Source of the DNA: Verrucomicrobiota bacterium JB022
GTDB taxonomy: Bacteria; Verrucomicrobiota; Verrucomicrobiia; Opitutales; Oceanipulchritudinaceae
Direction: 5' to 3'
Assembly (NCBI GenBank): GCA_030673845.1
Contig: JAUTCQ010000001.1
Coordinates: 124,001-188,000, forward strand
Length of the DNA: 64,000 nucleotides
The notes beneath the pieces were generated by a model. The model worked only from the letters and a program-made list of their open reading frames with translations, was not told where the DNA came from and made no database searches. Positions 31,838 to 36,328 of the stretch are shown here, one piece after another. Positions within the stretch are counted from its first letter, which is position 1. Every line of letters starts with the position of its first letter. A program made the position numbers and the translations under genes.

Positions 31838-32392
31838 ATGGAGGCAACGACTATCAATTTGCGGACGGGCTGCCCCGCCACGCGTATCCCCAGCGGCGAG
31901 CAGATCACCTTGCCGGAGGGCAGCGAGCTGTTCATCACCCAGGCCTTGGGTGGCTCTGTGACGGTGCGCGACCAAGGCGGGCTCTACCGCGTCGACCAGG
32001 CGCACCTCGACGCCTTCGGCCCCGAAGTGGCGGCCCAACTGCGCGACGAGCTGCAGGCGACCGACCTCAGCGGCCAACCCTTTAGCGAGCAGCAGCTCTG
32101 GGATTCGCTCCGCCAGTGCTTCGACCCCGAGATCCCCGTCAACATCGTCGACCTCGGGCTGATCTACGACCTCCATTACGAGGAAATCGCCACCGGCCGC
32201 TACAATGTGGGCGTCAAGATGACCCTCACGGCCCCCGGCTGTGGGATGGGCCCCACCATCGCCAACGACGCGCAGTCCAAGCTGCAGTCGCTGCCCTCCG
32301 TCGAAACCGCACAGGTAGACATCGTCTGGGATCCGCAGTGGACGCCGCAAATGATCTCTCCGGAGGGTCGCAAGATCCTCGGCCTGGGCTAA
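31838..32392 (+). CDS. sufT: Fe-S cluster assembly protein SufT
   Basis: SufT is a DUF59/MIP18-type accessory factor for iron-sulfur cluster maturation. The 184-residue protein has an N-terminal beta-strand domain (1-85) as in annotated SufT proteins and a C-terminal DUF59 domain with the signature DPEIPVNIVDLGLIYD and a single Cys in TAPGCGMGPTIAND. The closing segment (VDIVWDPQWTPQMIS) is also typical. No other suf genes are in the window. A Xer-type recombinase gene overlaps or abuts its 3' end. Confidence 0.93.
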   Translation: MEATTINLRTGCPATRIPSGEQITLPEGSELFITQALGGSVTVRDQGGLYRVDQAHLDAFGPEVAAQLRDELQATDLSGQPFSEQQLWDSLRQCFDPEIPVNIVDLGLIYDLHYEEIATGRYNVGVKMTLTAPGCGMGPTIANDAQSKLQSLPSVETAQVDIVWDPQWTPQMISPEGRKILGLG

Positions 32393-33318
32393 GCCCGCAG
32401 GCCCCCGCGCTGCCGGAAACGGCCTGGCTCGGCGCTTTCCTGGATTTCCTCCGGGACGAGCGCCAGGCCTCGCGCTACACGGTGCGCAACTACGCGCAGT
32501 CCCTCGAAGAGATTCTCGGCTACTTCCGGCAGGAAGGCTATGCCGGGCCGTTGGAGAAAGTGCCCGAGCGGCTGATCCAGTCGTATCTGGTCGACCGCCA
32601 GCGCGAAGGGTTGTCGCGCCGCACACTGCACCTGCGCCTCTCTGCCGCGCGTTCGTTTTTCGACTACCTGCGCCGCCGCCGCTTCGTGCAGCGCAACCCC
32701 TTCCATACCCTCAGCGCGCCCAAGTTCCACCAGCCGCTGCCCCGCTTCCTTACCGAGAAGCAGATGACGGAGTTCCTCGAAGGCCCGGCCAAGCTTTTCG
32801 AGATGGGGCAAGCGACCCGGTTTGAGGCGGTGCGCGATCAGGCGATCTTTGAGCTGTTTTACGGTGCCGGCCTCCGCATCAGTGAGTTGATCGCGCTTAC
32901 CTACGGGCAGGTCGACTTCCAGCGTGGCCTCGCACGGGTGCGCGGCAAGGGAAACAAAGACCGTATCTGCCCGCTCGGCCCGGTGGCGGTGCGCTGCCTG
33001 GCGCGCTTCCGCGACGAATTTGCGACCGAGCGCGGCTACGAAGCGGTGATTCTTTTCCGCGAGCCGGGCAAGCCGCTGAAGCCCGATTGGGTGCAAAAGC
33101 GCATGAAAGTCTACCTCCAGCTGGCCGGGCTACCGCTGGAGCTGTCGCCGCACAAGCTCCGCCACTCCTACGCCACTCACCTGCTCAACGGCGGGGCGGA
33201 TCTTCGGGCGGTGCAGGAGATGCTCGGCCACGCCAGCCTTGCCACGACGCAAGTCTACACCCACGTAGGCATGGCCGAGCTGAAGAAAGTCCATGCGCTC
33301 AATCACCCGCGCGGGTAG
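32338..33318 (+). CDS. Tyrosine recombinase XerC/XerD
   Basis: Xer recombinases resolve chromosome dimers at dif. The catalytic residues are all present: R in GAGLRISEL, K in VRGKGNKDR, HxxR in SPHKLRHSYATHLL, H in GHASLATTQ and the nucleophile Y in VYTHV. The N-terminal SAM-like DNA-binding domain (LGAFLDFLRDERQASRYTVRNY) is intact. The start is uncertain: GTG 32338 overlaps sufT by 55 bases and gives 326 residues, while the only later option before the conserved domain is CTG 32410, past the sufT stop. Single-copy genes of this type in Verrucomicrobiota serve as XerC or XerD; I cannot say which. Confidence 0.93.
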   Translation: MDAANDLSGGSQDPRPGLSPQAPALPETAWLGAFLDFLRDERQASRYTVRNYAQSLEEILGYFRQEGYAGPLEKVPERLIQSYLVDRQREGLSRRTLHLRLSAARSFFDYLRRRRFVQRNPFHTLSAPKFHQPLPRFLTEKQMTEFLEGPAKLFEMGQATRFEAVRDQAIFELFYGAGLRISELIALTYGQVDFQRGLARVRGKGNKDRICPLGPVAVRCLARFRDEFATERGYEAVILFREPGKPLKPDWVQKRMKVYLQLAGLPLELSPHKLRHSYATHLLNGGADLRAVQEMLGHASLATTQVYTHVGMAELKKVHALNHPRG

Positions 33319-33324
33319 GGCAGC

Positions 33325-34275
33325 CTACGCCTCCTTGATCTCGCTGACCGGCATCACCACGAGGCTGTAGAGGCGGTCATTTACCCCCTCGGCCGCATCC
33401 CGGATCATGCGCAGCTCTTCCGGGGTAGCCGCAGGCCGCTTCATGCGCACAAATATTTCGCCCGTGATGCAGCGGCCCTCTTCACGCAGGCGCACTTCGG
33501 CTTCGGCCACGCCCGCACATTCGAGCACCCGGCGACGGATGTCGCGGTCGATCTGTAGCGGGTGGCTGGAGTCGGCCTCCGTAGGGCGCTGATCGAGCAG
33601 GTTCAGCACGGCATGGCGCAGGTGGGTCGTGCCGTCGTGGATAACATTGAGTGAGATCAGCGCCGCCGCCACCGCATCGGCCCACCAGAGCCCGGCGCCG
33701 ATGCCGATAACGCCCAGCATGGCCGCTACCCCCGTCTGCCAGTCGTCCTTGTTCATTGTGGCGTCGGCCAGAATCGTACGCTCGTTGAGGCGGCAGCAGA
33801 TGCGTTGCTTGAGGAAGCCGAGGATCATCGGCGGGATTACGCTGACGACGAGGGCGCCCAGCATCACCCAGCCCGACCATATCTGCCAGCCGAAGCGGTC
33901 GAAATGGCCCAGCGTCGGGTGTTCCCGGGCGATGAGAGACGACGCCGCATCGTAGAGCATGTAGAGGCCCATGCCGAGAATCGCGACCGCCGAAACGAGG
34001 AACGACAGCAAGGCCGTGCGCTGAAAGCCATAGGGGAAGCGGTTGGTGGGCGCGCGATCCCGAAAGTGGTTGGCGATGAGGAAGGCGGCCGGCGGCACCA
34101 AGGCCAGCAAGTCTTCGATCCAGGCCGTCTTCATCGCCTGCGAGCTGCCCATCGCCACATACATTACCGCGACCACGCCGAGCATGACGACTACTGTCGC
34201 CCACTCCAGCCATACGATCTGGCGACTCTTCCGCTGGGCAGCTCCCGGCAGGCGATAAGGTTCACGGGGCCTCAT
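33325..34275 (-). CDS. Cation diffusion facilitator family transporter
   Basis: A 316-residue protein with a divalent-cation efflux layout of six hydrophobic helices followed by a cytoplasmic C-terminal domain (about 215-316, with DIRRRVLECAGVAEAEVR). Typical CDF features are NRFPYGFQRTALLSFL between helices 2 and 3 and a WIEDLLALV segment in helix 2; helix 5 has a WADAVAAALIS motif. The usual metal-site Asp/His pairs are not all in canonical positions, so the ion is uncertain. The start codon overlaps the preceding lipoprotein stop by four bases (ATGA), so it is translated with that gene. Confidence 0.85.
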   Translation of the reverse strand: MRPREPYRLPGAAQRKSRQIVWLEWATVVVMLGVVAVMYVAMGSSQAMKTAWIEDLLALVPPAAFLIANHFRDRAPTNRFPYGFQRTALLSFLVSAVAILGMGLYMLYDAASSLIAREHPTLGHFDRFGWQIWSGWVMLGALVVSVIPPMILGFLKQRICCRLNERTILADATMNKDDWQTGVAAMLGVIGIGAGLWWADAVAAALISLNVIHDGTTHLRHAVLNLLDQRPTEADSSHPLQIDRDIRRRVLECAGVAEAEVRLREEGRCITGEIFVRMKRPAATPEELRMIRDAAEGVNDRLYSLVVMPVSEIKEA

Positions 34276-34793
34276 GGCGCGTCCTCCACCTGCAAGGCTT
34301 CGACCTCGTCGCGCCGGCTCAGCAAAAACGCTTCCAGCCGCATCAGCATCGCGTTTTCGCCGCTGGCGACGGCCATCACCTGCCGCTTGGGCTCTTCCCC
34401 ATCGCCTGGGTGGATCGTGGCAAAGGGCAGGCTGAAGCCCAGCTGCGTCCGCCAGGGGTTTTGTTGCGTAATGCCCCCAATTACGACATCCAATTCGTGC
34501 TTTTCGAGTGATGCGAATAAATCCTCCGCACCTTCGTGGGACCACTCGACCGACACGCCCAGCTCGCGCGCGAAATCCTCGATCAGCGCCACTTCCACGC
34601 CTGTGACCGTGCCATCGGGCTCCACCGTCACCCACGGCGGGTTCTCAAACGCGCCGGCCCGCAGCACCCCGCGCTTTTCTACTCGCTCCAGAGTGCCAGC
34701 GGGGTCGCGCGGGAAGCGTTCGCAGCCGGTCATCAGGACGCTCAAGCCCACCATGCCGATCAGGATCGTGCGAGGTCTCCAAATACTGCTCAT
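34272..34793 (-). CDS. Solute-binding lipoprotein (SBP_bac_3) lacking lobe II
   Basis: A 173-residue lipoprotein: signal helix, then lipobox LMTGC with the lipidated C24. The body begins like family-3 amino-acid binding proteins (RVEKRGVLRAGAFENPPW, VTGVEVALIEDFARELG, LDVVIGGITQQNPW, FSLPFA). After that, where about 90 residues of lobe II are expected, the chain jumps through an acidic loop (HPGDGEEPKRQ) to the final lobe-I elements (VMAVASGENAMLMRLEAFL). Normal members are around 230-250 residues. No ABC permease or ATPase is adjacent. Four-base overlap couples it to the CDF transporter. ATG 34793 is chosen because it gives a proper lipoprotein signal. Confidence 0.8.
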   Translation of the reverse strand: MSSIWRPRTILIGMVGLSVLMTGCERFPRDPAGTLERVEKRGVLRAGAFENPPWVTVEPDGTVTGVEVALIEDFARELGVSVEWSHEGAEDLFASLEKHELDVVIGGITQQNPWRTQLGFSLPFATIHPGDGEEPKRQVMAVASGENAMLMRLEAFLLSRRDEVEALQVEDAP

Positions 34794-34862
34794 GGGGTAA
34801 AGGGTTCGCTTCCACCGTAGCATCAGGCGGGCCAAGCGCCGGTCCAGGGCTGTGCGAGGCAT

Positions 34863-35690
34863 CTACTTCCGCGGTGGTCGCGCAACCTGGTCGAAGTCGC
34901 GCGCAAGGCGGTCCAGATCGATTCGGATCTCATCTCCCCTCAGGGCCTTGCCATGGCCAGCAATCAATGTCTGGGGCCGCAGAACGGCCAAGCGACGGAC
35001 CGACTCGCGGGCCGCCTCCCAGTCGGGTGTAAAGTAGGTCGGCGGGCCATGAATTTCGACCTTCTGCGCCGCTACGGCGGTAGCCGACGATTGATCGGTC
35101 GTGATGATGGCATCGGCGCTCAGCAAGGTATGGTCATTCAGGCGCCAGAGCGCGACCTGCCCAGGACTGTGCCCCGGCACATGCACCCAGCGCCACTCCG
35201 GCATCCCCGGCACGCTACCGTCGTCCGGCAGCAGCTTCAGGCCCGGCACGATGATCGGCTTTCGAGGGTAGAGAGGGGAAAGGCGTGCCATCAGGCCCCC
35301 TCCGGCGTTCGGACTCGGTGGAGGGTAGGGCGTCGTGCCATCGAGAAAGGGCTTCTCCAGCCGATGGGCATAGACCGGCGTCTCCGGCCAGTGCTCCCGC
35401 AGCTTTTCCAGGGCGCTCACATGGTCGAAGTGCCCATGGGTCAGTATGATCGCCTTTGGGGCGCGTGGCCCGAAGCGTTCTTCAGCCGCCTTGATGATCG
35501 CGCCGCCGCTGTGCGGAAGCCCCGCATCGACCAATACCCACGGCGCATCAGCCGCTTGCGGATCACCCAAAAACACGACATTGACCATCACGATGCGCTG
35601 GTAGGCAACATCGGGCAGAACTTCCTGCGAGCGAGCGTCGGGCGTCGCATCGCCAGCCTTGGTGGAGGGGTCGGTCGGGATCTGGGTCAT
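34863..35690 (-). CDS. MBL-fold metallo-hydrolase
   Basis: The 275-residue protein has the metallo-beta-lactamase fold: motif THGHFDH (HxHxDH), HVPGHSPGQVALW for the third metal His, DAIITTD for the bridging Asp and AGHG for the last His. It should bind two metal ions and hydrolyse an ester, thioester or similar; the substrate is unknown. No signal peptide. The lipoprotein-CDF pair begins 69 bases downstream on the same strand, so all three could be one operon. Confidence 0.88.
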   Translation of the reverse strand: MTQIPTDPSTKAGDATPDARSQEVLPDVAYQRIVMVNVVFLGDPQAADAPWVLVDAGLPHSGGAIIKAAEERFGPRAPKAIILTHGHFDHVSALEKLREHWPETPVYAHRLEKPFLDGTTPYPPPSPNAGGGLMARLSPLYPRKPIIVPGLKLLPDDGSVPGMPEWRWVHVPGHSPGQVALWRLNDHTLLSADAIITTDQSSATAVAAQKVEIHGPPTYFTPDWEAARESVRRLAVLRPQTLIAGHGKALRGDEIRIDLDRLARDFDQVARPPRK

Positions 35691-35767: not shown

Positions 35768-36328
35768 ATGAACGTAAAAACTCCTGAAGATCTATTTCAC
35801 CACGACCTCAAGGACCTCTACGATGCCGAGCACCGAATCGAGGAGGCGCTCCAGAAGATGGAGAAAACCGCGAAGAATGCGGACTTGAAAAAGGCATTTC
35901 GCCAGCATCGCACCGAGACGCAGGGCCAGATCAAGCGCCTGGAGCAGGTGTTCGAGGCATTTGGCAAGACACCCCAGCGCAAGCAGTGCGAGGCCATCAC
36001 CGGCATCATCGAAGAGGGCGAAGAAATGATGGAAGAAGTCGAAACGCCCGACGTCCGCGACAGCGCGCTGATTGCCGCCGCGCAGAAGGTGGAGCACTAC
36101 GAGATCGCGAGCTATCGCACCATCTGCCGTGCCGCCGAACTGCTGGGCCTCAAGGACGCCGCCAAGCTTCTCACCGAGACCCTAAAAGAAGAGTCTGCCA
36201 CCGACGACAAACTGACTGCCCTTGCTGAAAAGCTGGAGCCGCAGCTCGTGAAAGTAGATTTCAGTAAAATCCTGAGAATATACGAACGCGCACCCGACGA
36301 TGGGCGCGTTTTTATTTTGCAAGGCTGA
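35768..36328 (+). CDS. YciE/YciF ferritin-like protein (DUF892), 3' end runs into terminator
   Basis: Small helical stress proteins with a ferritin-like four-helix fold. Residues 1-155 match YciF: NVKTPEDLFHHDLKDLYDAEH, QGQIKRLEQVFEAFG, RDSALIAAAQKVEHYEIASY. Glu/His in those helices are the presumed di-metal ligands. Family members usually end soon after the LKEE-x-ATD-x-KLT segment (near residue 150); this one has about 30 further residues (LVKVDFSKILRIYERAPDD) with no family similarity, and the final codons coincide with a terminator hairpin. A frameshift or lost stop codon is likely. GGGAG lies five bases before the ATG. Confidence 0.85.
   Translation: MNVKTPEDLFHHDLKDLYDAEHRIEEALQKMEKTAKNADLKKAFRQHRTETQGQIKRLEQVFEAFGKTPQRKQCEAITGIIEEGEEMMEEVETPDVRDSALIAAAQKVEHYEIASYRTICRAAELLGLKDAAKLLTETLKEESATDDKLTALAEKLEPQLVKVDFSKILRIYERAPDDGRVFILQG
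36285..36317 (+). terminator. Rho-independent terminator overlapping the 3' end of the yciE/F-like gene
   Basis: AACGCGC (36285-36291) and GCGCGTT (36304-36310) form a perfect seven-base stem followed by TTTTATTTTG. It lies inside the last 15 codons of the open frame that stops at 36328. Confidence 0.8.

Follow-up and report, generated by a model that had tools for sequence, protein, structure and literature searches.

Introduction

Solute-binding proteins (SBPs) are built from two lobes that hold the ligand in the cleft between them, and they usually serve importers. We know of no cation diffusion facilitator (CDF) that requires an extracytoplasmic partner. CDFs are described, in the accessible part of PMC5703985, as exporters out of the cytoplasm. 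Only two families of secondary transporters, TRAP and the tripartite tricarboxylate transporters, were known to use an SBP before TAXI-GltS was described (according to the available part of PMC12344293). Isolated lobes can still bind: the engineered domain 1 of TmArgBP binds arginine at about 3 uM (available part of PMC7589609), and the loss of lobe II alone therefore leaves solute binding possible.

Results

Layout of the locus

Two overlapping genes in the window (the whole 64-kb stretch of DNA analysed in this work) encode an SBP-like lipoprotein with a single lobe and a CDF-fold transporter. The features of the locus were the following:

34863..35690, minus strand: MBL-fold hydrolase, co-oriented and directly upstream of the pair (Pfam)
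34272..34793, minus strand: SBP_bac_3-like one-lobe lipoprotein, 173 aa (Pfam match, open reading frame and AlphaFold2 model)
34272..34275, minus strand: ATGA, overlap of the lipoprotein stop and the transporter start (read from the sequence)
33325..34275, minus strand: CDF-fold cation transporter, 316 aa (Pfam/TIGRFAM match, predicted fold)

An earlier note on this DNA had reported the stop/start overlap, and the ATGA at 34275-34272 is indeed shared by the lipoprotein and CDF genes. The stop of the MBL-fold hydrolase abuts an in-frame upstream ATG at 34862; this alternative lipoprotein start was set aside in favour of 34793, because the lipoprotein signal fits the latter. Promoter and terminator scans of the window pair gave nothing. 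On the downstream side, a tyrosine recombinase (Phage_integrase domain, 32227-33318) is convergent with the CDF gene, its end lying 7 bases from the CDF stop. A DUF892 gene (35768-36328), which we take to be YciE/YciF-like, is divergent from the MBL gene. The MBL-fold hydrolase was not found beside the pair of the same-genus relative L002, and its place is taken there by a divergent ORF that presumably resembles a zinc-type alcohol dehydrogenase.

The absence of an importer permease close by, also claimed in the earlier note, was borne out for ABC systems by a search of the whole genome: PF00528 had no match in the 64 kb, and all 15 genome matches lay elsewhere, the two on the same contig each more than 100 kb away. 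The window lipoprotein was the only SBP_bac_3 match in this genome (4.35 Mb, 97% complete), and the window CDF was the weakest by Pfam of four CDF matches.

A lipoprotein with one SBP lobe

The lipoprotein begins with a lipobox (LMTGC, the lipidated residue being Cys24) and a PRDP tether, followed by lobe I (residues about 33-124), a replacement loop, a return strand (136-143), a GEN motif (145-147) and C-terminal helices. The loop, of 13 residues (125-137, ATIHPGDGEEPKR), replaces lobe II and stands where a canonical SBP has about 93 residues. Pfam SBP_bac_3 (PF00497) matched residues 51-125 (E 3e-11, profile positions 9-83 of 132) with 43.7 bits against a gathering threshold of 26.4, which places the protein in the family by sequence; the two lobes that define an SBP are not present. 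The same profile was matched at E <= 0.001 by 73 of the 81 aligned family members.

Structure prediction of the lipoprotein alone, a check proposed in the earlier note, gave a confident single lobe (AlphaFold2 with an alignment of 77 rows; pLDDT 91.7, pTM 0.83). The four highest-ranking Foldseek matches of this model were structures of isolated domain 1 of TmArgBP (7a99, 6y16, 6gpc), with TM-scores by target of 0.85-0.87, and LAO domain A (6xks) followed at rank 38 (TM-score 0.72). VIA-align superposed the lipoprotein on lobe I of AncCDT-1 over 138 residues (Z 20.2, rmsd 2.0), a match tied with other SBPs at most 1 Z unit apart. Pfam, AlphaFold2 and Foldseek thus agree with the one-lobe architecture that had been read from the letters, lobe I being present and lobe II reduced to a short loop.

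Conservation was concentrated in the tether and near the end of the lobe. Among the 81 aligned members, Cys24 was present in 80, P28 in 81 and D30 in 76, and the GEN motif, just ahead of the last lobe-I helix, was nearly invariant (G145 in 81, E146 in 80, N147 in 81). In the window protein, the invariant proline (P28) follows Cys24 at a distance of four residues and the next helix begins at residue 34; with so short a tether, the lobe would be held near a membrane. Actinomycetota are mostly monoderm, so that in this phylum the tethering membrane would be that of the CDF.

In SBPs for amino acids, one arginine grips the carboxylate of the ligand. The corresponding column aligns with W114 of the window lipoprotein, and arginine was found there in 0 of 81 family members, one- and two-lobe alike, against 18 of 18 ordinary SBP_bac_3 proteins that the Actinomycetota search had also yielded. 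The absence of this arginine therefore cannot be put down to the missing lobe II.

Conservation of the gene pair

The earlier note had proposed that the gene pair be looked for in other genomes, and there the pairing proved constant. A profile search of genome contigs with the CDF alignment gave 395 confirmed relatives, and the best 80 of these, ranked by similarity to the window CDF, were analysed. An SBP-family sequence lay directly upstream of the CDF in all 80 of these best 80 of 395 relatives; it formed one frame spanning the profile in 77 of them, being split in L039 and L062 and incomplete in L088. By record titles, the best 80 of 395 span eight phyla: Verrucomicrobiota, Pseudomonadota, Actinomycetota, Bacteroidota, Planctomycetota, Acidobacteriota, Gemmatimonadota and Bdellovibrionota. 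A stop/start overlap of 4 bases was present in 75 of the 85 pairs measured (among them the window pair, L001, and two entries from a single genome, L002 and L027). The count leans towards overlaps, because whichever in-frame start codon lay closest to the SBP stop was assigned to the CDF. No fusion of the two genes was noticed in the course of these comparisons. As judged from this overlap of reading frames, the SBP gene appears to be coupled to the transporter gene in the manner of TAXI-GltS.

Because the best 80 of 395 were those most similar to the window CDF, separate samples of phyla were drawn. CDFs of the subfamily (E < 1e-100) were rare in them: 2 of 387 Verrucomicrobiota genomes, 10 of 296 Actinomycetota, 4 of 398 Pseudomonadota and 1 of 296 Bacteroidota, own or centre genomes included. 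When the own and the three centre genomes were removed, an SBP was found upstream of the subfamily CDF in 13 of 13 cases (with a broken frame in one, L137), at least 4 of these 13 genomes being already among the best 80. Upstream of other CDF loci, an SBP was found in 0 of 12 (475 to about 1500 bases upstream examined). In the Actinomycetota sample, where the best 7 CDF and the best 9 SBP candidates per genome were scored, the SBP (E <= 1e-39) and the CDF (E < 1e-100) occurred in the same 10 of 296 genomes and were adjacent; the next SBPs appeared only at 1e-12.

The exceptions to the pairing were all on plasmids. CDFs without SBP were carried by plasmids of Variovorax PBS-H4 and S. yanoikuyae YC-XJ2 (L169 and L170; profile coverage begins only at positions 46 and 21), and on a plasmid of Arthrobacter Rue61a (L022) an SBP with a broken frame stood without a CDF. 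Arthrobacter sp. Soil782 carries the pair twice (L105 and L106); the copies have diverged, and in both of them the CDF is accompanied by a one-lobe SBP of its own. The one-lobe SBP is annotated as an enoyl-CoA hydratase in Sulfitobacter records (L025, 3950-4387, the only one examined), a label that may have been transferred from the gene upstream.

Both Verrucomicrobiota genomes with the CDF belong to the genus of the window. Because these are the only 2 of 387, and because the CDF tree and the lobe-I tree both place the pair of this genus with Gammaproteobacteria, the pair was probably acquired as a unit. On these comparisons, the window pair is not an isolated decayed fragment, and its CDF belongs to a distinct subfamily with an SBP-like upstream partner.

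One-lobe and two-lobe forms

Mature binding proteins fell into two size classes, with 121-152 residues in 50 cases, 210-225 in 31 and none between (85 pairs less four: L050 without lipobox, L066 with a misplaced one, and the incomplete L062 and L088). The 84 rows of the CDF tree comprised 51 one-lobe, 32 two-lobe and 1 uncertain form (lobe state set by hand for L066, L059, L039, L050 and L062; L088 left uncertain). The deletion of lobe II, for which a search in other genomes had also been proposed, was thus found in several separate clades. Lobe state changed at least 6 times on the CDF tree (84 rows) and 5 times on the lobe-I tree (81 rows), and the placing of one-lobe rows in a single clade was rejected (p-AU 7e-46, quick tree), which makes them polyphyletic. 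These counts carry no direction; as the wider SBP family is two-lobed, we infer that lobe II was repeatedly lost. Pseudomonas MYb185 has one lobe and is nested among two-lobe Halopseudomonas on the CDF tree. The window protein, also with one lobe, has as its sister the two-lobe protein of the same-genus relative L002 (the same genome as L027), which has a shortened lobe II (mature protein of 215 residues vs. 150 in the window), within a group that includes Microbulbifer and Halopseudomonas.

The dN/dS ratios of the one-lobe proteins were 0.05-0.36 in 11 close pairs (two of the loci enter two pairs each; the window copy lies outside these pairs), and those of the CDFs 0.05-0.14 in ten of the 11, dS being saturated for the CDF of L078/L086; several dS values exceed 1, making the ratios rough. 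One-lobe forms are, on these ratios and as a family, under purifying selection, and thus differ from decayed fragments, that is, short forms without conservation or selection. Decay was set aside for the family, given the conserved one-lobe clades and these ratios of 0.05-0.36, though not fully for the window copy.

According to the earlier note, two-lobe relatives with the same neighbour would mark the window copy as a decayed fragment. Such relatives do exist (L002 and 31 other rows), but they do not imply decay, because one-lobe forms are conserved in several clades and are under purifying selection. What might still apply to the window copy is a recent deletion of lobe II that left it non-functional while other family members kept their function. 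Its same-genus sister (L002/L027) has lobe II, the allele was seen in one genome only, and Gln replaces the common H138, all of which would suit a remnant. Nevertheless, its frame is intact, with the lipobox, P28, D30, E67, W84, W114, the GEN motif and the ATGA overlap all kept, its predicted fold is confident, and a short linker in place of lobe II is stable in other lineages; a decaying remnant is very improbable on this evidence.

The transporter of the pair

The window CDF matched Cation_efflux (PF01545; E 4e-16, 59.8 bits against a cut-off of 26.6) and, just above the cut-off, TIGR01297 (84.6 against 82.35 bits), and is a member of the CDF family by these matches; TIGR01297 was found at E <= 0.001 in all 84 subfamily members. 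The AlphaFold2 model (pLDDT 89.3, pTM 0.81) resembled YiiP in both structural comparisons (Foldseek, 8f6e, E 4e-12; VIA, 5vrf, Z 21.1 over 273 residues).

Differences were seen in the A-site. In an alignment that used a YiiP D51A mutant as marker, residues E54, A58, M174 and D178 of the window CDF corresponded, with an uncertainty of one residue in the TM2 register, to D47, D51, H155 and D159 of YiiP. The first of these positions was E in 83 of 84 subfamily members, the second S in 60, G in 16 and A in 8, the third M in 73 of 84 and the fourth D in 82 of 84. Two of the four positions of the canonical metal quartet (TM2/TM5) are therefore changed, and E/(S,G,A)-M/D is absent among the quartets named in the accessible part of PMC5703985 (HD-HD, ND-DD, DD-DD, DD-HD, EN-HD, HH-DH and HD-ED). 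Control CDFs compared with the same profile (11 comparable; L133, a fragment without the compared columns, was left out) had a published quartet in 7 of 11 cases (HD-HD in three, ND-DD in two, EN-HD in two). An eighth had E/D-D/D, and TM2 register was apparently shifted by one in the other three; it is because of these three, and of D55, which is invariant in the subfamily, that the register of the A-site is uncertain by one residue. With its A-site changed in this way, the CDF could move no metal at all.

The non-canonical A-site would also suit a solute-dependent secondary transporter like TAXI-GltS, with a lipoprotein that delivers an organic solute or conditions transport and a CDF whose cargo is maybe not a metal. 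Lobe II is kept in 32 of 84 tree rows, and TAXI-GltS is recognised genetically by translational coupling between an SBP and its secondary transporter (available part of PMC12344293). However, the ligand arginine is missing in 81 of 81 members, lobe II changed state repeatedly and losing it would abolish clamshell closure, and the CDFs treated in the accessible part of PMC5703985 are exporters out of the cytoplasm. Dependence of the transporter on a delivered solute is thus quite unlikely.

The TM3-TM4 loop is extracytoplasmic in CDFs. In the window CDF, TM3-TM4 takes up 12 alignment columns more than in YiiP, and 79 of 84 subfamily members have 22 residues between positions 114 and 137 while the other 5 have 24, against 11-16 in 10 of 11 control CDFs. 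The long loop (about residues 115-136 in the window CDF) was modelled by AlphaFold2 as a short hairpin and is conserved at G123 (82/84), G129 (77/84), W133 (84/84), G135 (84/84) and W136 (78/84); Trp occurs at the W133 column in 3 of 11 controls, and the whole loop pattern in 0 of 11. The loop as a feature unique to the subfamily was rejected, since the remaining control (L117) has 22 residues, the same as the window CDF. We infer that the TM3-TM4 loop is a candidate docking site for the lipoprotein.

Neighbouring genes and the cargo

An all-against-all comparison of flanking ORFs gave no cluster present in more than 5 loci, and the 5-locus clusters were mostly from Halomonas/Vreelandella. When 78 upstream and 82 downstream neighbours were scanned with Pfam (78 of 79 and 82 of 83 ORFs passed the alignment step), no family turned up in more than 4 members and no metal-handling gene recurred near the pair across phyla. 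These scans covered the loci other than 12 near relatives (all five Halomonas/Vreelandella, three of four Aequorivita, L034, L070, L087 and L089) and, besides them, L001 and L027; ORFs shorter than 95 aa and those with wrong-frame composition were also left out. With no recurrent neighbour, the operon context gives no pointer to the cargo.

Ku/LigD, Dps, SDR, DUF892 and MgtC neighbours occurred, each in a few loci only, and may point to a stress-gene setting for the pair. In Halomonas/Vreelandella (L041, L043 and L046-L048), a small Cys-rich protein is encoded about 175 bases upstream of the SBP; we take it to resemble copper-binding four-helix proteins.

In the earlier note, the lipoprotein was put forward as a periplasmic acceptor or sensor of the exported ion; its lobe I would capture the ion, free or complexed, once the CDF had released it, and would buffer or sense it. 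The pairing evidence applies equally to this role, the conserved acidic and amide residues (D30, E67, D102, E146 and N147) could bind hard cations, and the engineered lone lobe I of TmArgBP keeps its ligand binding (available part of PMC7589609), which makes such a role conceivable in principle. Against it, no conserved cluster of soft metal ligands (Cys/His/Met) was found in the alignment of 81 lipoproteins; 62 of 81 members have His at position 138, where the window protein has Gln; and metal-handling neighbours do not recur across phyla. In addition, because the CDF departs from the canonical metal site at two of four positions, the metal cargo is itself putative. The acceptor or sensor role is thus not supported so far, and we consider it unlikely.

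Discussion

Lobe I, the tether and the GEN motif were common to every member, and the sole constant companion was a CDF of the subfamily. Whatever function the members share must lie in lobe I, the only lobe they all have, and an accessory subunit fits a shared lobe I and a constant CDF better than a solute catcher does. We propose, with a probability of roughly 0.6, that the two genes form a conserved module composed of a CDF-fold secondary transporter and a dedicated extracytoplasmic, lipid-tethered accessory subunit or regulator derived from a family-3 SBP, in which lobe II is dispensable. The lipoprotein would lie on the outer face of the cytoplasmic membrane and would dock on the transporter through lobe I, the GEN and PxD motifs of the lipoprotein and the TM3-TM4 loop of the CDF being the candidate contacts. 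Once docked, the accessory subunit may gate the CDF, stabilise it or receive cargo from it, and would not act as a nutrient-delivering clamshell.

A more far-reaching version is put forward only tentatively: this may be the first CDF to depend on an SBP-derived extracytoplasmic subunit, with a half-SBP that captures no solute and serves as a gating or docking subunit, lobe II lost in parallel in several phyla, and a non-canonical cargo site together with a lengthened loop that receives the partner.

A dedicated SBP-CDF pair would add one more pairing between SBPs and secondary transporters, and the repeated loss of lobe II would be a natural experiment separating the roles of the two lobes. 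The pair suggests that a fold for catching nutrients was put to new use as a subunit accompanying a transporter of a kind that ordinarily functions alone, and the GEN motif and the TM3-TM4 loop provide handles on this CDF subfamily. No description of an SBP-CDF pair was found in the literature searched, whose reach excluded most subscription papers; as far as seen, the families themselves are known, and what lacks a description is their constant pairing, along with the parallel lobe II changes and the alteration of the CDF site.

Comparison with known systems

The lipoprotein resembles family 3 SBPs (PF00497; ArgBP, AncCDT-1) in its sequence match and lobe-I fold, and differs from them in that lobe II is absent or shortened, the ligand arginine is missing, the window has no ABC permease and the partner is a CDF. 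As an isolated lobe I, it is comparable to TmArgBP domain 1 (6gpc, 6y16, 7a99) and LAO domain A (6xks), but these are laboratory dissections, whereas the protein described here is a natural one-lobe protein. TmArgBP domain 1 binds arginine (available part of PMC7589609); the natural one-lobe protein, in contrast, is without the ligand-gripping arginine.

The transporter shares its fold and topology with known CDFs (PF01545, TIGR01297: YiiP/FieF, MntE, MamB/MamM, ZnT), and differs from them in its E/(S,G,A)-M/D A-site, in a TM3-TM4 segment longer than that of YiiP, and in its constant lipoprotein partner.

The pair is similar to TAXI-GltS, where the translationally coupled partner of a secondary transporter is a lipoprotein SBP and no TRAP membrane component takes part (available part of PMC12344293); in the pair described here, coupling is predicted from the overlapping reading frames. 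The window pair combines a family-3 lobe I with a CDF fold, whereas TAXI-GltS, an importer, combines a TAXI SBP with a Na+/glutamate symporter; its ligand has been demonstrated, and fusions are known (available part of PMC12344293).
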